A stretch of 48,296 nt of DNA from a virus. Of the stretch, positions 13,506 to 29,402 are shown piece after piece. Each line of letters opens with the position of its first letter. Position 1 is the first letter of the stretch. A program made the position numbers and the translations under genes. The notes under the pieces are model-generated. The model did no database searches. It had not been told where the DNA came from and saw nothing but the letters and a program-made list of their open reading frames with translations. The DNA lies in the IMG/VR virus record IMGVR_UViG_3300005253_001369, positions 1-48,296 of that record. One strand, 5' to 3'.

Positions 13506-13527
13506 AAAATACAAAAACCCTTATCTC

Positions 13528-13647
13528 AAAAAGAAGCAGGAAGATCGTCATAACAAGACAACTTCAAAACTTGGGAAAGGATTGTTTCCTGCTCCCATTT
13601 GAAATAAAGGTTTATTTTTCTTATACTTTTTGCTTGTTATATTGATC
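13528..13647 (-). ncRNA. Leader RNA with interleaved helices and terminator, copy 1
   Basis: Minus-strand arms in order: a 13647-13633, b 13595-13586, a' 13557-13543, b' 13542-13533, then UUUUU. a pairs with a' (GATC and ATAACAAG blocks around a small internal loop), b with b' (9-10 bp). The order a-b-a'-b' allows a pseudoknot. Same plan as at 15812-15920, 25802-25905 and 29308-29402. Confidence 0.6.
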
Positions 13648-13677
13648 TTTTTACCTCTCCCAATTATCCAAAACCCT

Positions 13678-13706
13678 ATTATGTAATATTTTGAAACAAA
13701 TTGCAA
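13678..13706 (-). promoter_or_regulatory. Sigma70-like promoter for the SLOG/tRNA block
   Basis: -35 TTGCAA (13706-13701), 17-bp spacer, -10 CATAAT (13683-13678) on the minus strand. The spacer AT pattern is close to those at 15926-15954 and 25910-25938. It precedes a 270-nt structured leader, then the SLOG gene and the tRNA cluster. Confidence 0.65.
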
Positions 13707-13718
13707 GCTTTTTCTTTG

Positions 13719-14050
13719 TTATTTTCGTTTTTCTTTAAAATACTTTTCAAAAACCTCTTTTGATCCACCATTAAATTCATGGTCATCATCCCATTCACCA
13801 ATATTAATCTCACCAGTTTTAAAGATTCCCATTGCATCTAAATGTTTGGCTTGATCTATGATGGTTTCATAACTTTCTGATCCATAATCATCAAAATCAA
13901 CCACATAAACTTCATATTTATAACATTTTAGGTTTTCTGGTTCTTCCTGTTCTATTTCAGCTAACGCGTTTTTCTTTTAAAAATCTCAATGTTTAATTCG
14001 TTGCTTTGTTTAATAAGTAAATCCAATTCCTTTTCAAGTTTATCCTTCAT
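13719..14050 (-). pseudogene. Small acidic protein gene split by a frameshift in an A run
   Basis: ATG at 14050 with AAAGGAGATTG upstream starts a helical segment (MKDKLEKELDLLIKQSNELN) that stops after 29 codons at TAG (13963-13961). One frame back, directly after AGAAAAAC, the sequence continues NALAEIEQEEPENLKCYKYE into the acidic domain ending at 13719. Joined, it makes a protein of about 110 aa. The later half has no ATG, only a GTG at 13904. An A-run indel, sequencing error or slippage on AAA would explain it. It ends just before the promoter at 13678-13706. Confidence 0.55.
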
Positions 14051-14052
14051 TT

Positions 14053-14958
14053 TCAATCTCCTTTCTTAAAAAAGTCGTTTCGTATCCTTTTGACCATATC
14101 TTCGGACAGGTCAGCAGGATCTCCGGTTTCCAATTCTATCATCTCAACACTACAAACCAATCCCGACAATTTGTTTCCAACCTTTTCCCATTCCCATATG
14201 CTATCGCTGTCAGGAATCAATAATACCTTTTTGATTCCTTTGCCGACTATCAGGTTTATTTGTTCGTGAGTCACTTTCTTTCCAGACGTTGACCCAGAAC
14301 CATTGCCCATGTTCCATTTATCAGTGCAGCTTTCGACCAGGATCATTTCATTCGTACAGGAATCAATACCATAGATAGTGTGCTTGATAGGTATTATTGC
14401 ATTGTCATCCGGATTATGCTTATGCTTCAGTTCTTGTTTTCCGGTAATATCCAGGCTGCTGAAGGTTATCAGTTCGTTGTCCAAATAAAATGGAATAATG
14501 ATTCGGAACTTGTAATCGCCTATTATCCCGCCCTCGTAAAGATCGTATTTATGTATTAAATAATTTAGATTATAGTTTCGTTTTTTAAAGTATTGTTTAT
14601 ATAAATCGTTAAAGTTTTTGGAGATGCCTTTCGGGAGGATGCAATCATTTATTTTTGCTTGCGGCAGGTTATCAAATGATTGTGGAAGATCATCCTCCCG
14701 AAAGGACTTGACTATCTTTTCTGCCCTATCCCAAGAGCATTGTTCTATCTCCCTTACTACTTTTGTTACATGGCCTGTCTCCGAGCAGATGTAGCAATTG
14801 AAGAATCTGTCAGGAGATATGCCAAGATGGTTACTATGATCATCGCAATGAGGAAAAACACATCGGATATTGATCCAACCCTGGGTCACATTTTTTCCAG
14901 AATCCCAAAATTCTATATCTTTTGATTCTAAATAAGAAATTATATCAAATTCAGACAT
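14053..14958 (-). CDS. DNA primase (CHC2 zinc finger plus Toprim)
   Basis: 301 aa. Zinc-binding N-terminus with C33, H41 or H44, C55 and C58 (IRCVFPHCDDHSNHLGIS...FFNCYIC), a middle RNA-polymerase domain (FRIIIPFYLDNELITFSSLD), and a Toprim fold with the acidic E209 in ILVES and D250/D252 in LLIPDSDS. It makes RNA primers for lagging-strand synthesis and would pair with the DnaB-type helicase at 3791-5317. It is shorter than bacterial DnaG, with no C-terminal helicase-binding domain. The start overlaps the end of the HNH gene by 19 nt. Confidence 0.88.
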   Translation of the reverse strand: MSEFDIISYLESKDIEFWDSGKNVTQGWINIRCVFPHCDDHSNHLGISPDRFFNCYICSETGHVTKVVREIEQCSWDRAEKIVKSFREDDLPQSFDNLPQAKINDCILPKGISKNFNDLYKQYFKKRNYNLNYLIHKYDLYEGGIIGDYKFRIIIPFYLDNELITFSSLDITGKQELKHKHNPDDNAIIPIKHTIYGIDSCTNEMILVESCTDKWNMGNGSGSTSGKKVTHEQINLIVGKGIKKVLLIPDSDSIWEWEKVGNKLSGLVCSVEMIELETGDPADLSEDMVKRIRNDFFKKGD

Positions 14959-15794
14959 CTTTCTTTCATTATATCTTCATAAAATTTTTGCCAATAATTT
15001 CGATTATAATTGGATCTTGTATTACAAGAAGTGCACAAACAAATTAAATTCCAAGGATCACAATTTTTTTTGTCATAATCTATATGATGAACGCCTAAAC
15101 GAATTGCTGTTCCCCAACAATCTGGATTTTGGCATTCGTTATTATCACGCTCTTTAATAAACTCTTTAAATTCTTTTGTCCAAATACTGCAATATGGTTC
15201 AGATGATATTCCGCCCTGCCAATTCCAATGTAACGGTCCAGAACGAAGTAAGGACATCATATTTCTATATTCGGGACAAGACCAAATTATTTTTGAAGCT
15301 TTGCCTATATCTTGTTTTGTTTGTTCAGATAATTTTTTACCTAAATTAGCTTGTCTAAGGAGTTCTTTGGTTTCTTCCGCCATTATTGTTCCAGTTTTGG
15401 CTTTGGACATCCTTTGTTTTGTTACCTCAGATCGTTTTTTTCCTTTTCCTGCAATACCTATGTTATTTCTATGTTCTTTAGTTTGTTTCCTCCCTTTATT
15501 ATATTGGTTTCCCATCATTCTTTTAGACAGTTTTTCTATCTGTTCTTCAGACTGTTTAAATCCTTTTAATGAATTAGATATTTTATCTAAAATTTCTTGT
15601 GATCTATTTCGACTATTATGCCCTGGCAAAAATCTTCTTTTAACTAATTCTCCACAACCGCATTCACAATATTTAATTTTAATCAGATCCCAATATCTTT
15701 TTGATCGTCTACCATGTCCTTTAATAAAACTATTTAATTTTCCTCTTAGCCGTTTTACTGGTTCTCCACAATTACATTCACAAAGTTTTTCCAT
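14940..15794 (-). CDS. HNH homing endonuclease with two zinc-repeat modules and NUMOD3-like motifs
   Basis: 284 aa. Two N-terminal modules of the form C-x-C-x-C...(P)VKR...GH..R (LCECNCGEPVKR and YCECGCGELVKR). The middle (about 70-190) holds NUMOD3-like repeats (GKKRSEVTKQRMSKAKTG, LGKKLSEQTKQDIGKASK). The C-terminal HNH domain has CQNPDCWG, GVHHIDYDKKNCDPWNLI and CTSCNTRSNYNRNYW. Paralogues are at 25170-25790 and 37472-38683. It is inserted directly upstream of the primase gene, with its own promoter and structured leader. Expected to cut phage DNA lacking the insertion. Confidence 0.88.
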   Translation of the reverse strand: MEKLCECNCGEPVKRLRGKLNSFIKGHGRRSKRYWDLIKIKYCECGCGELVKRRFLPGHNSRNRSQEILDKISNSLKGFKQSEEQIEKLSKRMMGNQYNKGRKQTKEHRNNIGIAGKGKKRSEVTKQRMSKAKTGTIMAEETKELLRQANLGKKLSEQTKQDIGKASKIIWSCPEYRNMMSLLRSGPLHWNWQGGISSEPYCSIWTKEFKEFIKERDNNECQNPDCWGTAIRLGVHHIDYDKKNCDPWNLICLCTSCNTRSNYNRNYWQKFYEDIMKERCLNLI

Positions 15795-15811
15795 AAATAA
15801 ATATATTCCTT

Positions 15812-15920
15812 TAAAAATAAAAAATCCGAGAATTGATCACAATTACTGGATAATTGCCTAAAAGGCTCACGCCAAATAGATTCTCGGATAATTTTAAATT
15901 TATTTCCAGTAATCTGATCA
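15812..15920 (-). ncRNA. Leader RNA with interleaved helices and terminator, copy 2 (HNH leader)
   Basis: Arms on the minus strand: a 15920-15906, b 15888-15880, hairpin GGC-GUGA-GCC (15873-15864), a' 15849-15834, b' 15833-15825, then six U. a/a' form about 14 bp with a small bulge, b/b' 9 bp. Arm a starts 6 nt after the -10 box, so the RNA begins at its own transcription start. It ends about 18 nt before the HNH ATG. Confidence 0.72.
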
Positions 15921-15925
15921 AAACC

Positions 15926-15954
15926 ATTATAAGATATTTTTAAAGAAATGTAAA
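15926..15954 (-). promoter_or_regulatory. Sigma70-like promoter for the HNH-primase block
   Basis: -35 TTTACA (15954-15949), 17-bp spacer, -10 TATAAT (15931-15926) on the minus strand, followed at once by leader RNA copy 2. Nearly the same sequence as the promoter at 25910-25938. Confidence 0.8.
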
Positions 15955-15962
15955 GCTTTATT

Positions 15963-16130
15963 TTAATCTTCCGGAAAGGTCATCTGTCTTATGTGCGCCG
16001 GATAAGAATCGATGATCTCATTCGACAGATTGGCTGCCTTTTCATATAACATCTGTTCGGTGAGTTCCTTCACCTCTTTCCATCTCTTGTCGGTTTCATA
16101 TTCCTTTGCTCTTTGTTCATTGGTTTTCAT
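15963..16130 (-). CDS. Small charged helical protein
   Basis: The start is the ATG at 16130 (AAAGGAGG upstream), which overlaps the TGA of the 52-aa gene as ATGA; 55 aa. Mostly charged helix (QRAKEYETDKRWKEVKELTE) and a C-terminal MTFPED. No recognised domain. Confidence 0.6.
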   Translation of the reverse strand: MKTNEQRAKEYETDKRWKEVKELTEQMLYEKAANLSNEIIDSYPAHIRQMTFPED

Positions 16131-16285
16131 GAATCCTCCTTTTCTTTTAACTCTTCGGCCTTTTGATCTAAATAATATCTGCATACATTTGGATCGGTAT
16201 GGACAGCAGAATAAGAATAAGCCACATCTGGAAATCCCATTCCTGAACCTCCACAAATTGAACATTTTCCTTGATACATTTTCAT
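16127..16285 (-). CDS. Small zinc-knuckle protein
   Basis: ATG at 16285 with AAGGAG upstream, 52 aa. CSICGGSGMGFP resembles a rubredoxin-like or DnaJ-type zinc knuckle (one CxxC seen, a third Cys near DPNVC). Acidic-basic C-terminus. Directly downstream of the control element at 16308-16398. Confidence 0.65.
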   Translation of the reverse strand: MKMYQGKCSICGGSGMGFPDVAYSYSAVHTDPNVCRYYLDQKAEELKEKEDS

Positions 16286-16307
16286 AATTAATTCTCCTTC
16301 AATATTA

Positions 16308-16398
16308 GGGTTTATAACATTGGTCAAATATCAATTTAAGTAGGTCAGAACGCTCGTATACTGGGTTTTAATTAAGAATTAATACCCTAATATACCCC
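16308..16398 (-). promoter_or_regulatory. Repeated control element, copy 2
   Basis: Minus-strand order: GGGTATATTAG, GTATTAAT, TTAAAACCC, GTATAC, TTCTGACC, CTTAAATTGATATTTG, TGTTATAAACCC. It overlaps the last codons of the helicase gene and ends about 25 nt upstream of the 52-aa gene. The least conserved of the four copies. Confidence 0.5.
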
Positions 16399-17784
16399 AG
16401 ACATTTCCCACCCGTTTTCAGCGTATATGGTTATCCTTTTTATGGCATGTTCGGCAAGGTATTTGTATTGATCCAGGAAGTCAATAATGATGACTGAATC
16501 CTTGCCTTCGGCGATGCGTAAGCCCCTGCCAATGACTTGCACCGTCTGAATCGAAGACATCCCGCCCATCCCATTAATTATTGCGGACAAGGTTGGGATA
16601 TTTACGCCTTCTTTCCAAACGCTGGAGCTGATAACAACCTTTATCTTCTTGTCATCTAATAATCTCTTGATCTCTGTTCTGGTTTCGCCTTCGGTAGAAC
16701 CCTGCACAAAAACCATATCCAGACCAAAAATATCTTTTCCAATAGATTGTATAAACTCTCCATGCTTGATCTCCTTTATCATTATCAGAACCGTTTTGCC
16801 CTTGTTAGATAGTTCCCTGGCTTCCCACGCTATCAGCTTGTTCCTTGCCCGGTTCTCGACTATCCCATGCTTGTAAAGATCCTTATAGCTTTTGAACTGG
16901 GCAATGTTGATATTATAAGGAACGGGAATTAATTTTATTTTTGGCTTTGCAATTATGCCTTTTTCTGATGCTTCTTTGATTGTTACTTCTCCTATTACCG
17001 GGCCTAATAGCCCTTCCAGGCTCAACAGCTTTTCTTTTTCTTTTGGCAATGTTGCAGTGAAACCTATTCGCATGGGCGACAGGTTGGATTGCATGACCTG
17101 ACCGTACTGGCTCTTCCGGTTATTCACATGATGAACCTCATCTATAATGGTAACATCAAAATACTCGCAATAATCATCTGGATTGAATTTGACGAATGTT
17201 TGAATGGTTGATACCACAATCCTATGGCCTTTCCAATCCTTCTTGCCGCCACCCAACACGCAACAATCGTCAAATTCTTTATTATACACAATAAGATCGT
17301 CGTATATCTGATTGACTATGTCGATGGAATGGCACAGTATCAGTATTTTACTTTTAGGGAATGTGCTCAGCAGCCCAAAGAATACAATGGATTTGCCGAA
17401 TGCCGTAGGCGCGAGCACTATCCCTCTCTGTTTTTCAATTGCCTTATTAATAAGGTTGATTTGTAAATCTACCTGGTTCTTTCTGAATCCTTTCTTTAGT
17501 AATGGTTTGAAGAAATCTTTTGGATCTTTTGTCGGAATAATATTTTTGAATCTTCCTTTTATTTCAAAATCAATATTTTTTGATTGTAGATGATCAATCA
17601 CCTTTGGCAAAAGGCCAGCAAGGAACTTTCCATATACGATGAAAAAGGCGTCCGCCGTTTTTCTTTCCCTCCTGAACGGGTCCTGTCTCCAATATACGGA
17701 TTTGTACTTGAGGCATGGCCTGATATGCGGAATCAGATCCTTGCTGGCCTTGCAAAATATGCTGTCTTCGATGGTTATTTTCAT
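16387..17784 (-). CDS. SF2 DNA helicase, T4 UvsW-like
   Basis: 465 aa. N-terminal basic domain (1-95), then Q-like motif GFRKNQ, Walker A APTAFGKS (125-132), DEVHH (215-219), motif III FTATL, and the second RecA domain ending with QVIGRGLR (motif VI). The layout matches UvsW of T4, which unwinds branched DNA and R-loops and moves the phage from origin-dependent to recombination-dependent replication. The ATG overlaps the TGA of the upstream gene. The 3' end overlaps the control element at 16308-16398. Confidence 0.9.
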   Translation of the reverse strand: MKITIEDSIFCKASKDLIPHIRPCLKYKSVYWRQDPFRRERKTADAFFIVYGKFLAGLLPKVIDHLQSKNIDFEIKGRFKNIIPTKDPKDFFKPLLKKGFRKNQVDLQINLINKAIEKQRGIVLAPTAFGKSIVFFGLLSTFPKSKILILCHSIDIVNQIYDDLIVYNKEFDDCCVLGGGKKDWKGHRIVVSTIQTFVKFNPDDYCEYFDVTIIDEVHHVNNRKSQYGQVMQSNLSPMRIGFTATLPKEKEKLLSLEGLLGPVIGEVTIKEASEKGIIAKPKIKLIPVPYNINIAQFKSYKDLYKHGIVENRARNKLIAWEARELSNKGKTVLIMIKEIKHGEFIQSIGKDIFGLDMVFVQGSTEGETRTEIKRLLDDKKIKVVISSSVWKEGVNIPTLSAIINGMGGMSSIQTVQVIGRGLRIAEGKDSVIIIDFLDQYKYLAEHAIKRITIYAENGWEMSGVY

Positions 17785-18572
17785 ACTTTTTTCATGTAGA
17801 CCTTGCCGTTGAAAAGATTAGATAAATAATAAAGATCTTCACGATATCCTGAATCAGACCATCCATTTTTATGACGTTCATTTATCACAAGTTTTGGCCC
17901 AAGGCTGGAGGTATTCCAATGGGGTTCTTTTGTTATTTCTATAACATAATCTCTGCTCTGCCAAACCCGATTCAGCATGACTCCCGGTTGAAATTCCTGA
18001 ATGTCTTTCCAATCAACCTTAACCCAGTTTCCGGTTTTAGGATTCCATTTATCGTCTTTGGTTTCTTTAATATATTCATGTTCCAATAAATATTTTCTGA
18101 AACAATCATCTCGACTCAAAGCATATTTGAGAAATCCTGAATGATCGAAAAGATTATATCCTCTACTTGTTTTTCGTTCTGTTTTCATCCAAGCCATTAG
18201 ATTAAAAAGCTGTTGGTCCGAGGCCTTTATATCATGTTTGGCTCCATACAGATCATGAAAACTTAATTCTTTGCCTGTCCATACGTATTCTTCTTTTATA
18301 GTTTCCTCCTTTTCTAATCTGTTTAGCTGGTTCGGATCAAAGTTTGTAACCGCTGTTCCACCATTAGAGAAATGCCGGTGGTCTAATTCCGGTTTATACG
18401 AAACACATGGCGGACAACTTCGAGCCGTCCCGACCAAATAACAACCCGTCTTACAACTATTAATATCATTTAAAAATGGATGCGGAAAGCATCTATTATG
18501 TAAATGGTTGGTTGTACGTCTATCTTTATTTTCACAAGTTTCGCTTTTTGGACATATCCCCAATTCTTTCAT
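17781..18572 (-). CDS. Cys-rich protein of unknown function
   Basis: The start is the ATG at 18572 with AAGGAGGATTTT upstream (263 aa); the longer frame enters the promoter. Residues 5-60 contain about eight Cys and several His (CPKSETCENKD, HLHNRCFPHPF, CKTGC, CPPC), suggesting two zinc sites. The rest includes KELSFHDLYGAKHDI and a Trp-rich C-terminal half with a basic end. It is the first gene after the promoter at 18603-18631 and is coupled to the helicase. No family recognised. Confidence 0.7.
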   Translation of the reverse strand: MKELGICPKSETCENKDRRTTNHLHNRCFPHPFLNDINSCKTGCYLVGTARSCPPCVSYKPELDHRHFSNGGTAVTNFDPNQLNRLEKEETIKEEYVWTGKELSFHDLYGAKHDIKASDQQLFNLMAWMKTERKTSRGYNLFDHSGFLKYALSRDDCFRKYLLEHEYIKETKDDKWNPKTGNWVKVDWKDIQEFQPGVMLNRVWQSRDYVIEITKEPHWNTSSLGPKLVINERHKNGWSDSGYREDLYYLSNLFNGKVYMKKV

Positions 18573-18602
18573 AAAATCCTCCTTTTTCAATTCTAATATT
18601 TT

Positions 18603-18631
18603 ATTATAACCCATTCTCAATAAAATTTAAA
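18603..18631 (-). promoter_or_regulatory. Sigma70-like promoter for the UvsW-like helicase block
   Basis: -35 TTTAAA (18631-18626), 17-bp spacer, -10 TATAAT (18608-18603), minus strand. Lies in the gap between 18640 and 18572. Confidence 0.75.
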
Positions 18632-18639
18632 GATTTATT

Positions 18640-19077
18640 TTACAGACCCTCGCAGAATTCCACTATTTCCTGAATCCTTTTGTTGACGAAAGGCAAAGGT
18701 TTCTTCCATCTGATGCTAAAGAACTTGGCTATCACGTAATGGTTCTTCTGCCTCTTGTCCAGGTTCCTGCCGTATTTCTTGATGGTATACCTGCCCCGGC
18801 TCCTTTTGGGGTCGCAATGCCCGGGGTCGTGGCATCTTGTAAACACATTGAACTCGGAGTCGTCCGTTGTCAGCACATTGGCCATATCCCTTGCGTATCT
18901 GCTCATCTTCTCCCAGGCATCCTTTGTGATAATGATGCTTTCAGGGGAGACAGCAGTTGTAGCAAGAATTATATCTTCGCCGAGTATCAGGAAATTGTTG
19001 ACATCGGCTATCGCCATAGCCAACAGGTAATCGTATTCGTCGTAGCTTTTGCCCGACCTTTCTTTTACTCCTGCCAT
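18640..19077 (-). CDS. Unknown protein, 145 aa
   Basis: ATG with AAGGGGGATATAAT upstream. An alpha/beta N-terminal part (YLLAMAIADVNNFLILGEDI) is followed by a middle helix and a very basic region with FTRCHDPGHCDPKRSRGRYT, where two Cys and two His could bind zinc or RNA. Codon use is less AT-rich than its neighbours. No family recognised; last gene before the promoter at 18603-18631. Confidence 0.65.
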   Translation of the reverse strand: MAGVKERSGKSYDEYDYLLAMAIADVNNFLILGEDIILATTAVSPESIIITKDAWEKMSRYARDMANVLTTDDSEFNVFTRCHDPGHCDPKRSRGRYTIKKYGRNLDKRQKNHYVIAKFFSIRWKKPLPFVNKRIQEIVEFCEGL

Positions 19078-19091
19078 ATTATATCCCCCTT

Positions 19092-19316
19092 TTAAATATC
19101 AGATTGTAAACAATAAAAGATCATTCCGTCAATGTTAATCAAAAAATAATCATTAAATTCAAATACTGTTCGATTATTTTTTTTGCATTTGTCAATAGTA
19201 AAAGAAATATGGCCAAGTTCATAAGCGGGACGAACAAAATTGTTTAACGCTTTGATAAGCGTTTTTGTTTTATCGTCTGCCTCTTGATAATCTTTAAGAT
19301 GAGATTTTGAAATCAT
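19092..19316 (-). CDS. Small protein of unknown function
   Basis: 74 aa, GGAGGTAGATA before the ATG, 3 nt after the upstream gene. Helical N-terminus (SHLKDYQEADDKTKTLIKAL) and a beta-rich C-terminus (TVFEFNDYFLINIDGMIFY). No recognised domain. Confidence 0.6.
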   Translation of the reverse strand: MISKSHLKDYQEADDKTKTLIKALNNFVRPAYELGHISFTIDKCKKNNRTVFEFNDYFLINIDGMIFYCLQSDI

Positions 19317-19319
19317 TAT

Positions 19320-19589
19320 CTACCTCCTTTTTAGTTTGCGTACCTGTTCTTTTTCTTCTTCTGGTTCAATCCTTGGGTCAGGGAACAGATGATAAGCATT
19401 GTATTTCTTTGACCCAAAATCTTGCCTCATTTTCCTCATAACCCTGAAGTCGCATAATTGCTTATCATAAAATGATACTGTTGCGTCCCTCCTGAAAGTG
19501 AACTTTGGTTGGAAGAGGCTGCAATCTTCCGGTTCATCTGCGTACCAACAATCATCAGTGTTTTGGAATTGACAGTCTTTGCAGTTCAT
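19320..19589 (-). CDS. Small Cys-rich protein
   Basis: Start chosen at the ATG at 19589 because GGGAGGATTAAA lies just upstream; 89 aa. CKDCQFQNTDDCWYADEPEDC gives four Cys of zinc-ribbon type in the first 25 residues, a pattern seen in many small phage proteins. The C-terminus is basic. The Shine-Dalgarno sits inside the last codons of the preceding gene. Confidence 0.65.
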   Translation of the reverse strand: MNCKDCQFQNTDDCWYADEPEDCSLFQPKFTFRRDATVSFYDKQLCDFRVMRKMRQDFGSKKYNAYHLFPDPRIEPEEEKEQVRKLKRR

Positions 19590-19590
19590 T

Positions 19591-19938
19591 TTAATCCTCC
19601 CATTTTCCATATCTTGATGAAAATAATTCCTGTTTTTCTTGTTCTCTCTCTTTCCTTTCCCACATTCTCATGTTGGCATGAACGTGTGCCGTCAAGCTAA
19701 CCGAATTCGATGGGCTTCTTCCAGCACGCACGGCACCGGCTTTGCCAACCCAGTAGGATGAAGGAAAAGTTTGATGCAGTTCAGATCTTGATCCTTCAAA
19801 CCTTCGATGTTTATTACTTCTGTCATAGGGCAATTCTTTCTTTTTCAATCCCTCAACCAAAAACCGGACAACCCGATCTGTCAGGGTTTTGGGCTGTCCG
19901 GCCTTCGGGCCTTTTGAGTATGTCTGGTAAGTGTTCAT
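19591..19938 (-). CDS. Basic protein of unknown function
   Basis: Start at ATG 19938 with AAAGGAGGCCAA upstream; 115 aa. Rich in Lys, Arg, Ser and Gly with few hydrophobic blocks, probably nucleic-acid binding or partly disordered (RSNKHRRFEGSRSELHQTF). The C-terminal half is a charged helix (MRMWERKEREQEKQELF). Lies between the ligase and the Cys-rich gene. Confidence 0.6.
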   Translation of the reverse strand: MNTYQTYSKGPKAGQPKTLTDRVVRFLVEGLKKKELPYDRSNKHRRFEGSRSELHQTFPSSYWVGKAGAVRAGRSPSNSVSLTAHVHANMRMWERKEREQEKQELFSSRYGKWED

Positions 19939-19948
19939 TTGGCCTCCT

Positions 19949-21058: not shown

Positions 21059-21072
21059 AATTGTTTCTCCTT

Positions 21073-21348: not shown

Positions 21349-21397
21349 CCAATCATAATGGCTTATCTCACATCTTATAAAATCCTCCTTTTTTAAG

Positions 21398-21511: not shown

Positions 21512-21521
21512 TTAGTCTCCT

Positions 21522-21608: not shown

Positions 21609-21620
21609 AACCTTTTACGT

Positions 21621-21676: not shown

Positions 21677-21685
21677 GATAAAAAG

Positions 21686-22384: not shown

Positions 22385-22395
22385 ACTGCCTCCTT

Positions 22396-22778: not shown

Positions 22779-22797
22779 ATTTTCTCCGTAAATATTT

Positions 22798-22950: not shown

Positions 22951-22960
22951 AATAACCTCC

Positions 22961-23110
22961 TTAATTATAGGTTTCTCCGCACGAGCACCTTTTGTCTGTC
23001 GGCTTATTTACTCCGCAACACCACCAGGTTTCCTGCTTGTCACAATCGCCGCAACCATGACAAACTGAACTTTCTTCCAATATGCAATATTGATCTTTTA
23101 TTTCTTCCAA
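22961..23110 (-). CDS. 49-aa Cys-rich peptide (TTG start)
   Basis: TTG at 23110-23108 with AAGGAGATAAAA upstream, immediately after the stop of the interrupted gene. It has about eight Cys: VCHGCGDCD, WWCCG, RCSCGE. Probably binds two zinc ions. TAA at 22961 lies inside the next ribosome binding site. Confidence 0.65.
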   Translation of the reverse strand: MEEIKDQYCILEESSVCHGCGDCDKQETWWCCGVNKPTDKRCSCGETYN

Positions 23111-23112
23111 TT

Positions 23113-23352
23113 TTATCTCCTTAATCCTTCAGTTGGACTTAATGGTAATGTTCTACCATATTTTTTAAGTAAAGGCTCGACTACCTCTTCTGTCTAACCT
23201 CCAGCAGACATAACACCGGTTGGACTTTTTGAATCTTTATGATAGATAGTTACTATCCAATATCCACACCATTTTCTTGCCCTTGCATGAGTAAACTTAT
23301 CGGATGCAATAGCCTTTTCAAGATTTTCTAATTGTTCATTTGAAATTTCCAT
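23113..23352 (-). pseudogene. Small gene interrupted by one in-frame TAG
   Basis: ATG at 23352 with AAAGGAGGGTAAATT. Reads MEISNEQLENLEKAIASDKF ... KSPTGVMSAGG, then TAG (23196-23194), then TEEVVEPLLKKYGRTLPLS to TAA at 23113; 79 residues if read through. The N-terminal helix and WCGYWIVTIYHK strand look like an intact small domain. A Trp (TGG) or Gln (CAG) codon would restore it. Confidence 0.55.
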
Positions 23353-23393
23353 AATTTACCCTCCTTTATATTTAATGATTAATATTCTTACAA

Positions 23394-23439
23394 CTGCTCT
23401 TAACCCAATATCTTCTACTGCCTGACCGGTTAAGAGCAG
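23394..23439 (-). other. Intergenic hairpin element, copy 2
   Basis: Perfect 12-bp stem (23394-23405 with 23428-23439). On the minus strand it is preceded by TTTTTATCC and followed by TTGTAAGAATATTAAT, then the ribosome binding site of the gene at 23352. It starts within 11 nt of the previous stop codon. Confidence 0.55.
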
Positions 23440-23449
23440 GATAAAAATA

Positions 23450-23695
23450 CTAACGTTTAATCTTTTGCTTCTGCTGGCCGACCCGTTTCTTGGTTTCTTC
23501 CTCCTTAACACGAGTAACGACGTGGGTAGCCATGAGGCAGTTGCCCAGTCGCCACATGATAGTCGGATTCACATATATGGTGCACAATCCGACAATCTGA
23601 TTTTCGCATCCTTCACATTTGTCAATCACCTCGCCTCCGACCAACGGGTCTTTCGGCTTCCTGATTATTCGTCCTTCTGAATCTCTCTTTTGCAT
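23450..23695 (-). CDS. Small Cys-containing phage protein
   Basis: 81 aa. Basic N-terminus, then CEGCENQIVGLCTIYVNPTI and WRLGNCLMATH, four Cys in a spacing that suggests a zinc site, then a basic tail (KKRVGQQKQKIKR). Similar small proteins occur in phages; role unknown. ATG preceded by AAAGGAAAAACTT. Confidence 0.65.
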   Translation of the reverse strand: MQKRDSEGRIIRKPKDPLVGGEVIDKCEGCENQIVGLCTIYVNPTIMWRLGNCLMATHVVTRVKEEETKKRVGQQKQKIKR

Positions 23696-23707
23696 AAGTT
23701 TTTCCTT

Positions 23708-23950
23708 TTACCTTAGATAAAAATTTAAATTGACCTCAAAATCCAAACTTGACAATGACTCGTTCAGGCTTGTGGGATGGGCCAAGGCCAACTCGGCCAA
23801 CTGCCACCCGCTCCTGGGCTCAACCTGTCCCTTGCAGGAGAAGTTCTTTGTCCTGAGATACGGATCGCCAAACTTTGGTCGTATAACCGGATTACATCCT
23901 TTCCTGTCGCACCGATTGCAATCGGGCGGACTCAATACTGTTTGTTTCAT
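23708..23950 (-). CDS. Small Cys-rich protein
   Basis: 80 aa, AAGGAGAAATCAAA before the ATG. CNRCDRKGCNPVIRPKFGDPYLRTKNFSCKG: four Cys of zinc type in the first half. The C-terminal half is helical and has no Cys. It precedes the 81-aa Cys-containing gene by 12 nt; probably one functional pair. Function unknown. Confidence 0.65.
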   Translation of the reverse strand: MKQTVLSPPDCNRCDRKGCNPVIRPKFGDPYLRTKNFSCKGQVEPRSGWQLAELALAHPTSLNESLSSLDFEVNLNFYLR

Positions 23951-23991
23951 TTTGATTTCTCCTTATAAAATTATTTTATTTGTGTTTTTGC

Positions 23992-24606
23992 CTAAAATCT
24001 CCATTCAATCAAAGCTGCGGCTTTGTAACCACCAAAATCACGGTTCTGTTCCATAATCCATCCGGTTAAGCCAGGAGCGCCGCCATCGTTCCAACCGCAA
24101 ATAAACTCATTGATTTTCAGATAGCGATAACCGGCAGAGATGCCGAGATATAAAGATTTCCAGATACGTCTATTAAAATCAAACCCCATTTCTCCGCCGA
24201 TATTGGAATCAAACTCTACATTGTAATAATCGAACCAAGTTGTATGATGCGTCGGCACCCAGTATCTATTTTGAGCATACCCCAAACCTTCTCGACTGAA
24301 GTTATTTTTGTCGTATTGAGGCATGTAATATCCGACCTTTAAATATCCCAAAAATCCGTCGGCAATTTCTTGCTCGAATCCAAGACCGATAGAATCAATA
24401 TCAAAATAGTTACCATACATCAAAAGATTATCCTGCTCTCCAAAAATAAATAATCCTTTATGCTTTGCGCGAATTTCAATGCTATTTCCCGCTCGGATTT
24501 CGGGATCATTGTACAGCATTTGACTGATTCGCCCTTCTATTTCCCATCCGTGAACTGATGTGCCGAATAATAGAATTAAAATTATACTTTTGATTAACTT
24601 TTTCAT
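23992..24606 (-). CDS. Outer-membrane beta-barrel protein
   Basis: 204 aa with a signal peptide (MKKLIKSIILILLFGTSVHG, cleavage near residue 20), then alternating aromatic beta strands typical of an 8-10-strand barrel (FLGYLKVGYYMP, LYLGISAGYRYL) and a C-terminal Phe in ALIEWRF, the BAM recognition signal. This indicates a Gram-negative host and export of a phage-coded protein to the outer membrane, as with lambda Lom or Bor-type proteins. Possible roles are superinfection exclusion or changing the host surface. It is overlapped by the 53-aa gene at its 5' end (4 nt). Confidence 0.85.
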   Translation of the reverse strand: MKKLIKSIILILLFGTSVHGWEIEGRISQMLYNDPEIRAGNSIEIRAKHKGLFIFGEQDNLLMYGNYFDIDSIGLGFEQEIADGFLGYLKVGYYMPQYDKNNFSREGLGYAQNRYWVPTHHTTWFDYYNVEFDSNIGGEMGFDFNRRIWKSLYLGISAGYRYLKINEFICGWNDGGAPGLTGWIMEQNRDFGGYKAAALIEWRF

Positions 24607-24764
24607 TTTGCCTCCTTATAAAGTTTCTTTGCCTGTTTCATGGCGTATTTCGCCACAACTGATATCGGCTTCTTGGCGCAGTAGAATGCTTCCGCCGCTT
24701 CAAGGGAACCGAGTTCCTTTACCTTTTGTTCGATGAATTCTTTCTGTTCCGGTTTGAGGGCCAT
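24603..24764 (-). CDS. Small helical protein
   Basis: ATG at 24764, overlapping the TAA of the upstream gene (TAATG); 53 aa. LKPEQKEFIEQKVKELGSLE and a Lys-rich tail form two helices like a small helix-turn-helix (ELGSLEAAEAFYCAKKPISV), so DNA binding is possible. Its own stop overlaps the outer-membrane protein start by 4 nt. Confidence 0.6.
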   Translation of the reverse strand: MALKPEQKEFIEQKVKELGSLEAAEAFYCAKKPISVVAKYAMKQAKKLYKEAK

Positions 24765-25006
24765 TATAATTTTGCCTTTCTTGCCAATGCAATAAGTGTC
24801 GCAAGATTGAACCATTCCCATTCATATGAATTCTTGTTCATTAGCCTTATGGTAAATTCTCCTCTGTTTGTATTTGGATCATCACCAAAGGCATTATCAA
24901 AACGATATCCTGTAGTTGCCAATTCAAGTCCTTGTTCGTCTGGCTCATGCATATCTTCTCGACATTTTGATGCGATTTTATTTAATCTTTCTAACATTTC
25001 TTTCAT
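24764..25006 (-). CDS. Small acidic protein of unknown function
   Basis: 80 aa, AAAGGAGGAAATTATT before the ATG. Helical N-terminus (MLERLNKIASKCREDMHEP), an acidic centre and WEWFNLATLIALARKAKL at the end. No recognised family. Confidence 0.6.
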   Translation of the reverse strand: MKEMLERLNKIASKCREDMHEPDEQGLELATTGYRFDNAFGDDPNTNRGEFTIRLMNKNSYEWEWFNLATLIALARKAKL

Positions 25007-25023
25007 AATAATTTCCTCCTTTT

Positions 25024-25149
25024 TTATCTAATCAATCTTGAAAGTAAACGACCAATGAACCTTCTCTTTACCCTTTTGCCGACTTTGCCTTTTGACACTG
25101 CCGAAGCGTCTCCGAGCAGTTTTGCTATTAAATATAGTAATGATCTCAT
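25024..25149 (-). CDS. 41-aa basic peptide of a common phage type
   Basis: ATG at 25149 with AAAGGAGG about 14 nt upstream, TAA at 25024. MRSLLYLIAKLLGDASAVSK then KVGKRVKRRFIGRLLSRLI: a hydrophobic helix followed by a Lys/Arg-rich amphipathic helix. Peptides of this shape (LLG.A.A..KGK.GKR..RR) recur in many tailed phages; function unknown. Confidence 0.65.
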   Translation of the reverse strand: MRSLLYLIAKLLGDASAVSKGKVGKRVKRRFIGRLLSRLIR

Positions 25150-25169
25150 TTTGGGTTTGGTTCCTCCTT

Positions 25170-25790
25170 TCATTCATATTTATATCCGTATTTTTCGGAT
25201 AATATATTTTGATAAAATTTAGTCCAATATTCTCTATTGTAGTTGGCTCTCATATTACAAGAATTACAAATGGTAATTATGTTCCAAGGATTGCAATCTT
25301 TTTTAATATAGTTGATATGATGCCCGCCTAACCTTTTACTTGTTTTCCGACAAGTAGGATTCAAACATTTATTACCATCTCGTTCTCTTATCATTTTCTT
25401 GAACCCCTTATCTCGCCAGATGCTGCAATAGGGTTCTATGGATATTCCGCCTTTCCAATTATGATGGTTTTTGTTGGTGACTTTCGCTAAAACTTCTGGA
25501 TCACTCATAGGATTTTTATCGCCCATTAGGTCGGGTCTTTTCTTACCTTTATGAAAATGCCCGTTGACAAAAGTTCTCCAAGTATGTTTGTCGGCATACC
25601 AATTTACAGGATTTTTACAGCCACATTTACATAGAGGAGGCTTAATATTTGTAGGTTTTTCACGAAAATTTTTTCCTCTTGGTCGATGACCATTAATATA
25701 CTTATTTGGTTTACCTCTATGCCAATTTACTTCTCGTTTACAACCACAACCACACAGAAAAAGGGATTTCTTATAATCTTGTTTATTCAT
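25170..25790 (-). CDS. HNH homing endonuclease with two zinc-repeat modules
   Basis: 206 aa, the shortest of three paralogues. Two N-terminal modules (LCGCGCKREVNW...GHRPRGK and LCKCGCKNPVNW...GHFHKGK), a short linker without the NUMOD3 stretch, then ISIEPYCSIW, CLNPTCRKTSKRLGGHHINY and IITICNSCNMRANYNREYW. The last residues EKYGYKYE equal those of the 37472-38683 enzyme, so the two share a recent origin. It follows its own promoter (25910-25938) and structured leader (25802-25905). Confidence 0.88.
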   Translation of the reverse strand: MNKQDYKKSLFLCGCGCKREVNWHRGKPNKYINGHRPRGKNFREKPTNIKPPLCKCGCKNPVNWYADKHTWRTFVNGHFHKGKKRPDLMGDKNPMSDPEVLAKVTNKNHHNWKGGISIEPYCSIWRDKGFKKMIRERDGNKCLNPTCRKTSKRLGGHHINYIKKDCNPWNIITICNSCNMRANYNREYWTKFYQNILSEKYGYKYE

Positions 25791-25801
25791 GTTGATCCTT
25801 T

Positions 25802-25905
25802 AAAAATAAAAACCTGAGAGTGATTGAAGTTAGTAATAACTCCTTTATATCTCACGATATAAAGACTCTCAGGTTTATTTTTATATTCATTACTATATCA
25901 ATCAA
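25802..25905 (-). ncRNA. Leader RNA with interleaved helices and terminator, copy 3 (HNH leader)
   Basis: Arms on the minus strand: a 25905-25889, b 25875-25865, hairpin CUUUAUAUC-GUGA-GAUAUAAAG (25864-25843), a' 25837-25821, b' 25821-25811, then UUUUUAUUUUU. b/b' is a perfect 11-bp pair. As in copy 2 the middle hairpin has a GUGA loop and arm a starts about 5 nt after the -10 box. The sequence is otherwise different from copy 2. Confidence 0.75.
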
Positions 25906-25909
25906 CATG

Positions 25910-25938
25910 ATTATACGATATTTTAAAACAAATGTAAA
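25910..25938 (-). promoter_or_regulatory. Sigma70-like promoter for HNH gene 2
   Basis: -35 TTTACA (25938-25933), 17-bp spacer, -10 TATAAT (25915-25910), minus strand. It begins just after the stop of the 93-aa gene and drives leader RNA copy 3. Confidence 0.8.
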
Positions 25939-25944
25939 GCTTTA

Positions 25945-26226
25945 TTATAAAGTATTTTTTATTACAAAATTAACTCCGATAACTTCACAGTAAACCTTCT
26001 TAGAATTAAATAAATCCATAAGAACTTGTTTTTCATTTGGCAGTCCCAACTGGTACAGCTTCTTGAGCAGTTCGTCCGCATAGCCGAACGCTATAGCCAT
26101 CATGCATTCGTCATAGAGCTTGAACAGCTTCATGTAATTCGGGCTTAATGTCAGACTCCTTTTGGCCTCTGGCTGCGGAGCTGCCGCTGCCCATTGGATG
26201 GTGGCCGGTATCGTGATCTGCTGCAT
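25945..26226 (-). CDS. Unknown protein, 93 aa
   Basis: ATG with AAAGGAGGGTATT upstream. Ala/Pro-rich start (ATIQWAAAAPQPEAKRS) followed by helices (YMKLFKLYDECMMAIAFGYA, DELLKKLYQLG) and a short beta end. No recognised family. A frame at 26111-26332 is a shadow. Lies after hairpin element copy 3. Confidence 0.6.
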   Translation of the reverse strand: MQQITIPATIQWAAAAPQPEAKRSLTLSPNYMKLFKLYDECMMAIAFGYADELLKKLYQLGLPNEKQVLMDLFNSKKVYCEVIGVNFVIKNTL

Positions 26227-26266
26227 AATACCCTCCTTTTTGGTTGTTAGTTAATATTCTTACGTC

Positions 26267-26304
26267 CATCTTTGAAATAAATCTCTGTGTTAAGGTCAAA
26301 GATA
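26267..26304 (-). other. Intergenic hairpin element, copy 3
   Basis: Arms 26268-26275 and 26296-26303 pair over 8 bp. Minus-strand flanks TTTTTATCC before and GACGTAAGAATATTAA after match copies 1 and 2. Begins 13 nt after the stop of the 65-aa gene. Confidence 0.45.
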
Positions 26305-26315
26305 GGATAAAAATA

Positions 26316-26513
26316 TTAAATGGTATTGTCAATTATTTTAGCCTTAATACCTTTTTTGTTTAATTCTGCAATAACGTGATCGGCACAAAATTTACTATAT
26401 AAAGCATATGAATGAAAACCTTTATGTCGCCACATACCATCAGGGCATAATGCATAATTATCTCTTTCAATAGAATAGATTTCATTTGCTCTAAGTTTTT
26501 TTAATAGATTCAT
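26316..26513 (-). CDS. Small protein of unknown function
   Basis: 65 aa, AAAGGAGGGAATT before the ATG. Basic N-terminal helix then a compact domain with CPDGMWRHKGFHSYALYSKF and a C-terminal KKGIKAKIIDNTI strand. No recognised family. Confidence 0.55.
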   Translation of the reverse strand: MNLLKKLRANEIYSIERDNYALCPDGMWRHKGFHSYALYSKFCADHVIAELNKKGIKAKIIDNTI

Positions 26514-26525
26514 AATTCCCTCCTT

Positions 26526-27059
26526 TTATATTGTTCCTATGTAAGTTATTCTTTGCCGACATTTCAAACAGCTTCTTCTCTGGCCTTTGAGCATCTTGAT
26601 ATGGATGTTTGAAGTCAACCGGTGTTCCGTACATCCGCATTTATACAGATAAGGCCTGGCCGTTTTCCTTCTGACCTTCATGCTGGTGTTTTCAACGATC
26701 GCCTGCATGTTGTAATCTGAGCATCTGTTCGGTGGAGCCTCAAGGAATCTCATCATCCATTTCCATTCCCTGCCATGCGGCTTTGCCCTATGCCCTAAGA
26801 TATGATATACTGCCAGATGGGCGAATTCATGGGCGACCGTAGTATTGATATAATCGTCTTCATACTCTTTCAGGATATGAGGATTTAGCCGGATTATGTT
26901 TCCCTTATATTTGCATATCCCGGTTCTTGAGGTTCCGGTCAGGTCATATCTAATGTCAGGGAATATTGCATGATTGTATTTTTCCAGAACCTTTTCCCTG
27001 CACCATTTGATCTTGGCATCTACTTTCTTTTTAAGAGTTTCGATCCTTAGATTTGTCAT
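26526..27059 (-). CDS. SprT-like zinc metalloprotease
   Basis: 177 aa. Active-site helix TVAHEFAHLAVYHILGHRAKPHG with HEFAH at 77-81 and the third zinc ligand H95. An N-terminal helix and a C-terminal zinc ribbon (YKCGCTEHRL...RRSCLKCRQRITYIGTI) follow, as in SprT and Spartan. Eukaryotic Spartan removes DNA-protein crosslinks; bacterial and phage SprT roles are less clear. ATG preceded by AAAGGAGGTTTTCAT. Confidence 0.88.
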   Translation of the reverse strand: MTNLRIETLKKKVDAKIKWCREKVLEKYNHAIFPDIRYDLTGTSRTGICKYKGNIIRLNPHILKEYEDDYINTTVAHEFAHLAVYHILGHRAKPHGREWKWMMRFLEAPPNRCSDYNMQAIVENTSMKVRRKTARPYLYKCGCTEHRLTSNIHIKMLKGQRRSCLKCRQRITYIGTI

Positions 27060-27086
27060 ATGAAAACCTCCTTTATATAATAAGGA

Positions 27087-27233
27087 CTAATCATTCGGGT
27101 CGTTGAACTTCAATTTTTTGATCCATGCCGGCTTCCATACCCAAACTGTTAAGAATGAATAACCAGCAAACCAAATTACATCGGCCATTACCCTGATCTG
27201 CATGGGGTCTATTTCAAATACTATCATTTCCAT
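27087..27233 (-). CDS. 48-aa membrane peptide
   Basis: ATG at 27233 with AAGGAGAAAAACA upstream. MEMIVFEIDPMQIRVMADVI then WFAGYSFLTVWVW, one transmembrane segment, and a basic tail KPAWIKKLK. Ends in TAG. Function unknown. Confidence 0.6.
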   Translation of the reverse strand: MEMIVFEIDPMQIRVMADVIWFAGYSFLTVWVWKPAWIKKLKFNDPND

Positions 27234-27255
27234 TGTTTTTCTCCTTCTTGTTTGT

Positions 27256-27492
27256 CTACCACCCTTCTGTTACAGTTTCAATATTTCCCAAACTAATCAA
27301 TTTGCCATATTGTGATTCTGCATACTTTTTTGCATCTCGTTTTAGTGAAAATGCATCACCGGAATCTTCGGCAAAGTTTTCAAATGAACCATCTTTATTG
27401 AAAGTGTCATAATCCCATTCGTTAGAATCTCTTTGGTATATCCTGATTCTAATCGAATCATCATTATTTTTATATACGTAATCTGTTAGCAT
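27256..27492 (-). CDS. Small acidic protein of unknown function
   Basis: 78 aa, AAAGGAGGCAATAAA upstream. Beta-rich N-terminus (SIRIRIYQRDSNEWDYDTF), then a helix with KRDAKKYAESQYGKLISLG. Probably binds a phage or host protein; no family recognised. First gene after the promoter at 27529-27557. Confidence 0.6.
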   Translation of the reverse strand: MLTDYVYKNNDDSIRIRIYQRDSNEWDYDTFNKDGSFENFAEDSGDAFSLKRDAKKYAESQYGKLISLGNIETVTEGW

Positions 27493-27528
27493 TTTATTGC
27501 CTCCTTTTTAATTAAAGGTTTATTTATT

Positions 27529-27557
27529 ATTATAATTGATTTCATTTCAAATTTAAA
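27529..27557 (-). promoter_or_regulatory. Sigma70-like promoter
   Basis: -35 TTTAAA (27557-27552), 17-bp spacer, -10 TATAAT (27534-27529), minus strand. The 25 bp at 27566-27590 just upstream are repeated exactly at 28193-28217 upstream of the next promoter and may be an UP element or activator site. Confidence 0.7.
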
Positions 27558-27595
27558 GACTTATTTTTAAATCTCAAATAAAAGCAATTAATCTT

Positions 27596-27620
27596 CTGGG
27601 CAGTTTTGCAACTTGCCCAG
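27596..27620 (-). terminator. Hairpin between the 60-aa gene and the next promoter
   Basis: CTGGGC and GCCCAG enclose a small inner AGTT/AACT stem with a GCAA loop. A U-rich stretch (GCUUUUAUUUG) follows about 10 nt later on the minus strand. The stretch 27621-27748 between this hairpin and the 60-aa gene shows no gene that I can support; one frame is open for about 45 codons but lacks a start. Confidence 0.45.
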
Positions 27621-27748
27621 GTTGGTTGTTTAAGAATTTTGTGTAAATATTTCTTTGCAATCAGTTTTCAAAGCACTAAAAGGAGCACCGCCAGAAAATC
27701 TGCTTTCCAATTTATAAAGATCAAAATTGCCCAAATATTGATCATTTA

Positions 27749-27931
27749 TTATATTGTAAGTTTTCTTTTATAAATTACTTTTGAATTCTGTTTGCGGTAC
27801 TGCGAATAAACATAAAATCTCGCTCCCCGGTCATTATTGTTACATTGTCTTTGAAGTTCGGCCTTGATTTTTTCGGATACATTCAGGTTTCTGATCGTGT
27901 TTGCGATTTGTGCTTGAGTCAGTCTTTTCAT
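27749..27931 (-). CDS. Small basic protein, possible DNA-binding
   Basis: 60 aa. MKRLTQAQIANTIRNLNVSE resembles a helix-turn-helix opening, followed by KIKAELQRQCNNNDRG and a basic end. Probably helical and nucleic-acid binding; not assigned to a family. GGAGGCGCTAAA upstream. Confidence 0.55.
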   Translation of the reverse strand: MKRLTQAQIANTIRNLNVSEKIKAELQRQCNNNDRGARFYVYSQYRKQNSKVIYKRKLTI

Positions 27932-27957
27932 TTTAGCGCCTCCATATTACAATAAGG

Positions 27958-28143
27958 TTAAACGGTATCATTCAGATTTTCAACTATGCGGTTGATGTCG
28001 CCGACATGGCCCCAATGGACATTTTCAACCGGAGCTTCTTCCTGATGGTTGTCAAGATATTTCTCAAGTTTTTCAATCAGGTTTCTCGCTTTCATCTGGC
28101 TTTCGATATAGGCATTTGCCGCTGATTCTTTTTTCATCTTCAA
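27958..28143 (-). CDS. Small helical protein, first early gene after the control region
   Basis: 61 aa, AAAGGAGATTGAAG before the ATG. Two helices (ESAANAYIESQMKARNLIEK, LEKYLDNHQEEAP) and a His/Asp-rich C-terminus (HWGHVGDINRIVENLNDTV). Directly downstream of the promoter at 28161-28189. Function unknown. Confidence 0.6.
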   Translation of the reverse strand: MKMKKESAANAYIESQMKARNLIEKLEKYLDNHQEEAPVENVHWGHVGDINRIVENLNDTV

Positions 28144-28160
28144 TCTCCTTTATGATAGGG

Positions 28161-28189
28161 TTAATAATTGATGTTATTTCAAACTTAAA
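28161..28189 (-). promoter_or_regulatory. Sigma70-like promoter, start of the early region
   Basis: -35 TTTAAG (28189-28184), 17-bp spacer, -10 TATTAA (28166-28161), minus strand. Preceded by the same 25-bp sequence as the promoter at 27529-27557. Confidence 0.6.
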
Positions 28190-28217
28190 ATCTTTAAATC
28201 TCAAATAAAAGCAATTA

Positions 28218-28600
28218 CGCATCACTTAAAATCCAAGTAGAACTTAATTAGGCATCCGACCATTATTTAGCAAGATGTTCTATCCCAATAAGAGGCTCCC
28301 TTAAATCCGATCCTCTTCTCATTGCTGTCAGGTTCCATCTTTCCAAGTTTGAACCCTGCAAGATCGGCTCCCCGCTATTTGCGACTCCCTTTGGAGACTG
28401 GGTTGATTCCCAGTGGGTTTTGAATTGGTTTCGTTATTGAGATGTTTTTAATGGGGTTTACTTGCTGGCTCCGTTTCCCCTGAGCCTCTCAATAAAAAGA
28501 CCCTTTCACTAATAGGGGGAAATGGGGTTTTTTGGGTGTTTCAAAATCCTTGATTAGGGGCAGTTATAGGCGGTTAGGAGAGATTAGCCAATGTTTAGAA
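28218..28600. other. Non-coding, locally structured segment with no accepted gene
   Basis: More G+C than the flanking DNA. On the plus strand ACTGGG-TTGATT-CCCAGT forms a small hairpin, CTCC-CTTT-GGAG another, and GAGGCTC near 28297-28303 can pair with GAGCCTC near 28481-28487 across about 180 nt. A minus-strand frame is open for about 56 codons but has no usable start. It may hold a structured RNA or the remains of a gene. Confidence 0.4.
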
Positions 28601-29307
28601 GATAAAAATCAGTATTTATAATATAATATAATCAATAACATAGAAGCCAAATTATTAAAAGTTTTAATAGTTTACGATCTCCGATTAAACAACAAAATCT
28701 CTTGTTTTCTCGCATGTCAATGAATAAGGTGTTAATTTTATTATGAATATATAAAACCTATCTTTTTTGAAAGAAATGAAAGTAATTTAAAAAAAATAAA
28801 AATAATATCAATTTTTCTTACAGATTAATAGGTAAATCATTGGGTTTATTATAAATATATGAGATAAAATAATTTAAAGAAAATAAACTTTTAATTAAAT
28901 TATCGCCTGTCTCTTTATAAACTATTGGGTTTATTATAAATATAGGAAATAAAATGGCTGGAAAAGGTGAAAATAATGCCCAAAATAGCAAACTCATTTA
29001 ACTGTTAATAATGTTAATATAAAATCAAATCACTATTAATATTATTAATAGTTTAAAAAGTAAAAGAAATCAAAGAGTTATCTAAAAAATAATAAATAAT
29101 TCAAAAAAAATAATAATTATGTCTATTTAAATATAATTAGATATAACTATATATAATTGTATGTAACTGGATTTAATTAGATATAACTACATATAACTTA
29201 ACCATTTTAATTATAAATAAAAATCAATAGGTTATACAAGAAAATAAAATCCGTTATATTTTGATTATCTTCTTAATAACTCTTTATTTGTTAATTTTCC
29301 TATCTTT
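28601..29307. other. Very AT-rich repetitive region, candidate replication origin or control region
   Basis: No gene is supported. Several imperfect repeats are visible: GGGTTTATTATAAATAT at about 28851 and 28926 with a looser relative near 28736; TTAATAATGTTAATAT and TTAATATTATTAATAG at 29004-29052; and TTAGATATAACTA...ATATAA, twice at 29137-29200. It lies between the end of the structural operon and the early promoter at 28161-28189. Low melting energy plus repeats are typical of phage origins, but no initiator-binding iterons can be defined by eye. Confidence 0.45.
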
Positions 29308-29402
29308 AAAATAAAAATCCTGCATAGGTATGATCGCCAAATCACCAGAAATAAATCTGGCCTATGCAGGACTATAAAAATCTCAAATTGTGTTGGCGAT
29401 CA
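29308..29402 (-). ncRNA. Leader-type RNA with interleaved helices and terminator, copy 4 (not next to an HNH gene)
   Basis: Arms on the minus strand: a 29402-29393 (TGATCGCCAA), b 29371-29361, hairpin CCAGA-UUUAUU-UCUGG (29360-29345), a' 29340-29331, b' 29328-29318, then UUUUUAUUUU. Both pairs are perfect (10 and 11 bp). It follows the last structural gene and may end that operon or be an independent small RNA. The promoter upstream is not clear. Confidence 0.72.

Follow-up and report, generated by a model that had tools for sequence, protein, structure and literature searches.

We report a structured RNA class of approximately 105 nt that is new and absent from Rfam, and that lies in genomes of uncultured phages between a sigma70 promoter and a homing-endonuclease gene or the remnant of one (HNH, HNH_3, GIY-YIG, VSR-like or NUMOD3-only). 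The class set comprises 17 distinct sequences from eight contigs, namely an IMG/VR virus fragment of 48,296 bases (from here: the window) and seven other IMG/VR contigs.

An initial annotation of the window had proposed four sites at which the minus-strand RNA carries arms in the order a, b, a', b' followed by a U-rich run. This arrangement is present at all four places, where two interleaved pairings, a-a' and b-b', end in a U run when the site is read as minus-strand RNA. The pseudoknot of a and b was recognized correctly, but the plan of two helices was too simple, because there are five helices, including an extra hairpin c whose loop is the partner strand a2'. A refined descriptor (a2 complementary to the loop of hairpin c, the c stem, b-b' and the U run) returned exactly these four sites over the full 48,296-base window, with scores of 24, 22, 22 and 20. 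In dinucleotide shuffles of the window 0.3 sites are expected per window, usually scoring 17–18, and 1 of 30 shuffled windows reached 22; the descriptor was drawn up after inspection of the window copies by eye, so that this test is not fully blind.

By covariance model, copies 2 and 3 are certain members of the class. Their features are as follows:

25910–25938, minus strand: sigma70 promoter of copy 3, TTTACA-17-TATAAT
25802–25907, minus strand: leader RNA of copy 3, the best conserved class member in the window (covariance model R2, in which the copy 3 sequence is itself included, 107.2 bits, E 1.8e-19; MFE z −5.05)
25889–25903, minus strand: copy 3 arms a1 (25899–25903) and a2 (25889–25894)
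25865–25874, minus strand: copy 3 arm b, ACCTGAGAGT
25843–25864, minus strand: copy 3 hairpin with a GUGA (GNRA) tetraloop
25826–25842, minus strand: copy 3 hairpin c, the loop of which, ATTACT (25832–25837), is arm a2'
25822–25826, minus strand: copy 3 arm a1', between c and b'; base 25826 could alternatively close the end of c
25812–25821, minus strand: copy 3 arm b', followed by the U run at 25802–25812
25170–25790, minus strand: HNH homing-endonuclease gene of copy 3, 206 aa, with its ATG 12 nt past the leader and the Shine-Dalgarno (SD) sequence AAAGGA in between
15926–15954, minus strand: sigma70 promoter of copy 2, TTTACA-17-TATAAT
15813–15923, minus strand: leader RNA of copy 2, class member (R2, 74.6 bits), with b at 15880–15889, the GUGA hairpin at 15858–15879, hairpin c at 15839–15857, b' at 15824–15833 and the U run at 15813–15824
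14940–15794, minus strand: HNH/NUMOD3 homing-endonuclease gene of copy 2, 284 aa, SD AAAGGA at 15807–15812

Copy 2 was also matched by covariance model R1, which had been built without it (43.7 bits, E 5.4e-7). The promoters of the two copies are nearly identical (TTTACATTTSTTTWAAAATATCKTATAAT), and their HNH genes are paralogues with 62% identity across the HNH domain. As to the proposal that all four copies form one class, copies 2 and 3 are clear in the covariance model and belong to the 17-member alignment, whereas copies 1 and 4 were not recovered as homologues and are linked by the descriptor only. Three copies had been placed directly after a promoter; this holds for the strong promoters of copies 2 and 3, but the promoter of copy 1 is weaker and located ~30 nt further up, and none was found before copy 4. 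Similarly, the leaders of copies 2 and 3 precede the two HNH genes as described, but copy 1 ends ~130 nt before the SLOG gene assigned to it, with another long hairpin in between. No leader was detected upstream of the third HNH gene of the window (37472–38743). This gene encodes a protein of 423 aa from the same family, with several Cys-rich repeats, and is preceded by a different long hairpin.

With the HNH proteins of copies 2 and 3 and one from a giant-phage record as queries, 80 related IMG/VR loci were obtained, and in 4 of them the HNH gene is immediately preceded by this plan. Further copies, four of them in a single 40.7-kb contig, came from a scan for CCTGAGAG...CTCTCAGG plus U run, and these precede more than HNH genes: two GIY-YIG genes, one HNH_3 gene and one VSR-like gene (MTES_1575/DUF559). 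A covariance model of seven sequences recovered copy 2 as well as L199, L200 and L219, none of which was part of the model. Four more members were found on a 109.8-kb contig that was chosen only for its DnaN, 53% identical to that of another member phage; they are followed by an HNH-motif gene without Pfam match, a NUMOD3-only gene and two VSR-like genes. The expectation that a covariance-model search would reveal more copies before HNH genes was borne out, with further leaders before HNH and other homing-endonuclease genes, and members found by whole-contig scans that ignored the gene precede homing-endonuclease genes too. Among the 79 loci matching the pattern GAGART...AYTCTCR there was one true new member (L219).

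Other searches mark the limits of the class. Scanning IMG/VR with TTTTTATTTTTAAAGGA returned 91 stretches, mostly ordinary terminators or coding DNA, and four matches to a looser descriptor (L003/L021, L019, L062) fail the refined plan. No match was obtained by blastn of five leaders against 50,697 records of phage isolates, and the main b variant gave five pattern matches in 84,980 species genomes, none with the fold. The models run on more than 120 other viral contigs produced no convincing extra member, only matches at E >0.01.

Several leaders can occur in one phage (four each in contigs G005 and G102), and across the nine contigs that carry members or the diverged copy L154, leaders are found on many, not all, of such endonuclease genes. 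Most of these contigs share a few diverged genes with the window, at roughly 25–45% identity, and G001 almost none. The insertion sites vary and lie beside DnaN/DnaE, a clamp-loader gene or a primase. G005 carries promoter, leader and HNH gene between dnaN and dnaE, where its relative G102 has another gene; this difference suggests, without proving it, that promoter and leader move together with the gene. The region L200:1501–2389 contains a leader followed by an endonuclease-like CKCGCG start that continues into a portion of an adenylosuccinate synthetase (PF00709, E 4.7e-16), apparently the remnant of a deleted endonuclease. Past the leader L203 (G005:19856–19968), the HNH gene seems frameshifted near its start.

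The initial claim of covariation, made by eye for the window copies, holds for the class. In the alignment of the 17 sequences (A5), five helices are present that have no alignment columns in common: a1, a2, b, the hairpin with the GNRA loop and hairpin c, in which the loop of six nt is identical to a2'. Compensatory changes on both sides occur in 28 of the 34 pairs, and 95.8% of the cells are paired. None of 500 shuffles matched these values of covariation and pairing, and sliding the partners by 1–3 columns lowered pairing to ~40%. Hairpin c, which alone shows covariation in 5/5 pairs, lay outside the earlier model and came out of energy folds; once it appeared there, a first structure model with arm a as a single helix with internal loop was replaced. 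The tetraloop is of the GNRA type in all 17 members, and arms a and c vary freely while pairing is kept. Sequence conservation is highest in helix b, in part due to some members having been found by b; yet it, too, has three pairs with double changes, one of them a replacement of G-C by A-U close to the inner end in four sequences. The distance from a1' to b' is 0–2 nt and loop L1 measures 15–22 nt.

Folds were computed over the leader alone. In 16 of the 17 members the fold of lowest energy is closed by b ahead of the U run, and hairpin c is present in most. When b' is left out, a-a' pairs with a probability of at least 0.93 in 17/17; upon its addition, nested folding switches from a to b plus c, and b dominates in 16/17. 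The nested model cannot score a pseudoknot, so that pairing of a with the c loop and linker lies outside these probabilities. As judged from helix length, an L1 of 15–22 nt should allow a to pair with the c loop and linker, and the a and b plus c helices, which share no columns, may coexist.

The −10 box ends 5–6 nt before a1, with a 17-nt spacer, in 15 of the 17 members; by the usual spacing, the RNA is predicted to start at or within a few nt of a1. At the other end, the U run abuts the stem in 17/17 (5–7 U in the first 8 nt past b'), corresponding to the stem-plus-U signature of intrinsic terminators, where part of the member set was found by a pattern requiring TTTTT. The SD sequence and the start codon lie 3' of b' and the U run and in none of the five helices, and no sequestration of the SD was seen in the leader-only folds.

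A further feature is an open reading frame. In 11 members from five contigs (L189, L190, L191, L198, L203, L205, L219, L339, L341, L342 and L343) a single frame, that of the endonuclease, runs through the leader without a stop for 39–54 codons; an ATG often follows closely on the −10 box, and the consensus is like MLN...KPES...GV...SQAFLFG. L1 is 16, 19 or 22 nt long in all 11. Shuffled leaders keep such a frame open 3–13% of the time each, odds that are not independent because the sequences are related. Six members retain the pairing although their frame is closed, namely both window copies and two members each of G003 and G001; hence, the fold is a general feature and the frame a trait of a subgroup. 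In L198 (G005:27697–27806) the usual endonuclease ATG reads ATA and the leader frame enters without a stop. On transcripts arriving from upstream, in-frame translation through the leader could open the fold and so avoid polarity.

From the five helices, the promoter position, the U run and the endonuclease linkage we infer, as a reading that is somewhat probable, a pseudoknotted three-way-junction intrinsic terminator or attenuator that keeps homing-endonuclease genes low. Transcription from the sigma70 promoter of the leader itself would begin at arm a1 or adjacent to it, and a and a' would pair first during synthesis. Arm b', the last to be made, would then close with b to give the three-way junction b[GNRA hairpin][hairpin c] directly before the U run, while pseudoknot pairing would join a2 to the six-nt c loop and a1 to the strand that links c and b'. 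Most own-promoter transcripts would end after ~105 nt, with an efficiency that a modulating signal might set, and the free SD and the start codon of the endonuclease would be reached by read-through transcripts only, so that little of a potentially harmful nuclease would be made. In the larger subgroup, in-frame translation through the leader could unfold the RNA and relieve the block on operon transcripts. This reading fits best because a GC-containing stem meets the U run at once in every member, because the last helix formed is b, closed on the U run with a free SD beyond it whether or not a stays paired, and because copy 4 sits behind an operon with no adjoining gene.

Copies 4 and 1 and the gene behind the latter have the following features:

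29308–29407, minus strand: copy 4, folding into the same junction and probably a diverged or solo member, with a2 at 29393–29398, b at 29361–29373, a hairpin without GNRA loop at 29345–29360, c at 29331–29344, b' at 29316–29328 and the U run at 29308–29317
13513–13652, minus strand: copy 1, found by the descriptor, with the plan of a1, a2, c, b and U run but without the GNRA hairpin, doubtful member
13029–13382, minus strand: SLOG/YspA-like (YAcAr) gene downstream of copy 1 (Pfam PF10686, E 1.6e-4, below the cut-off; phrog_289)

Copy 4 folds into the same junction despite a weak covariance-model score (10.7 bits, in register, E ~6). It has no promoter upstream and no gene directly downstream, follows the gene at 29495–29755, and tblastn detected no endonuclease remnants around it. 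The neighboring ~1 kb at 28250–29300, which has no Rfam match, is AT-rich and almost gene-free; repeats resembling TAGTTATATCTAATTA are succeeded there by a stretch of higher GC content that may be structured. Copy 1 was matched by the covariance model only out of register, and the SLOG homologue in G003 has no copy-1-like leader. From copy 1 to the SLOG gene (13385–13510), a hairpin is nested inside a long-range stem of 15 bp without mismatch (GGATGGTTGGTGAAG/CTTCACCAACCATCC), immediately upstream of the SD. It was only because of copy 1, the weakest copy, that accessory genes had entered the earlier reading.

Several points weigh against termination. A strong terminator between promoter and gene would silence the gene and be polar on a primase or DnaE gene downstream, a stem with a branched ~45-nt loop is no textbook terminator, the open frame through 11 of the 17 leaders is not explained by termination alone, and two of the four window copies are weak members. 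We tentatively consider, as a rather unlikely possibility, a mobile cassette, in which a promoter and pseudoknotted terminator would be passed among unrelated endonuclease families and silence own-promoter transcripts, and would be opened by in-frame translation inside operons read from upstream, thereby sparing essential replication genes from polarity. Similarly unlikely, in our view, is a leader that acts on translation or stability without termination, the pseudoknot guarding the 5' end and hindering or timing ribosome loading at the SD past a U-rich spacer. It would agree with an SD close behind b' and U run, with an RNA whose 5' end is predicted to coincide with a1, and with the control of T4 homing-endonuclease translation by RNA structures, a stable hairpin being reported just upstream of the free ribosome-binding site (RBS) of seg43(25) (PMC2988022); yet the SD and the start codon lie outside every helix, stem and U run adjoin in all members, and copy 4 lacks a gene that could be translated.

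The remaining explanations are less probable still. The complete promoter–RNA–terminator layout, the multiple copies per phage and the persistence of the leader with an endonuclease stub (L200) or with no endonuclease (copy 4) would suit a small RNA gene with a ~105-nt product that works in trans or serves the endonuclease as its RNA partner; the gene downstream would then be a neighbour. This is unlikely, as the nuclease partners are mutually unrelated, no RNA-guided nuclease family was recognised among them, and no constant guide or target sequence is seen, with arms a and c changing freely under kept pairing. For a ligand-sensing riboswitch or self-cleaving ribozyme, which we consider quite improbable, speak the compact pseudoknot, the invariant GNRA loop, the conserved b arm and an order of a, b, hairpin, a', b' that recalls nested pseudoknots of the HDV type; against it, no Rfam family, ribozymes and riboswitches included, matched at E up to 5 beyond chance level. 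An HDV-like ribozyme was rejected on Rfam and on spacing, since the 0–2 nt between a1' and b' leave no room for P4/J4/2. Least credible is an N-terminal coding extension of the endonuclease with incidental RNA helices. The 11 open frames, their L1 lengths and the shuffles would favour it, but a coding role cannot account for covariation in 28 of 34 pairs, six members keep the pairing with a closed frame, and predicted own-promoter transcripts begin past the upstream ATG in most members.

The expected absence from Rfam was confirmed at the gathering score of its covariance models, with tRNAs as the only matches of the window to Rfam 15; for ten member loci, a search at E up to 5 gave nothing beyond tRNAs and weak matches of chance level. 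No description of such a leader was found in open-access papers, a scope outside which many papers fall. The class thus adds to the RNAs outside Rfam one with unusually strong covariation, including a 5' strand that pairs with a hairpin loop. That selfish nucleases with several unrelated folds share the leader speaks against autoregulation through a single protein domain. It also indicates that such genes commonly need restraint, and it suggests a control element whose spread does not depend on the nuclease. The class would allow direct tests of a pseudoknotted terminator and of how inserted genes escape polarity in phage operons.

HDV-like ribozymes have the order 5' P1 strand, P2 strand, hairpin, P1 strand, P2 strand. 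The leader shares this strand order but has longer a arms and the extra hairpin c, and lacks P4/J4/2 and an Rfam match. Riboswitch and ribosomal-protein-leader attenuators are 5' leaders with competing helices before a U run and gene; the leader, in which a and b plus c may likewise compete, has a similar layout but no known aptamer and is found on mobile nuclease genes of unrelated families. In the T4-type homing endonucleases I-TevI/II/III, segB and Aeh1 mobE, RNA hairpins sequester the RBS and lower expression (PMC2988022, PMC3014915). These are likewise phage RNA structures before homing-endonuclease genes, but they are simple and cover the SD, whereas the leader is a five-helix pseudoknot with a free SD that starts at the gene's own promoter. 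T4 mobE and segF have intrinsic terminators in their 5' coding ends, and ~30% of transcripts end in mobE (PMC2988022). They resemble the proposed role of the leader as a terminator at the start of a homing-endonuclease gene but are simple stem-loops inside the coding region, with no pseudoknot, GNRA hairpin or dedicated promoter directly upstream. The stable hairpin upstream of the RBS of seg43(25) in Aeromonas phage 25, the function of which is unresolved (PMC2988022), is, like the leader, directly before the free RBS of a homing endonuclease but, unlike it, a single hairpin. Since T4 homing endonucleases are restrained in several ways, mobE/segF terminators and RBS hairpins included (PMC2988022), the purpose of restraining these enzymes is already known, whereas the RNA itself is new.
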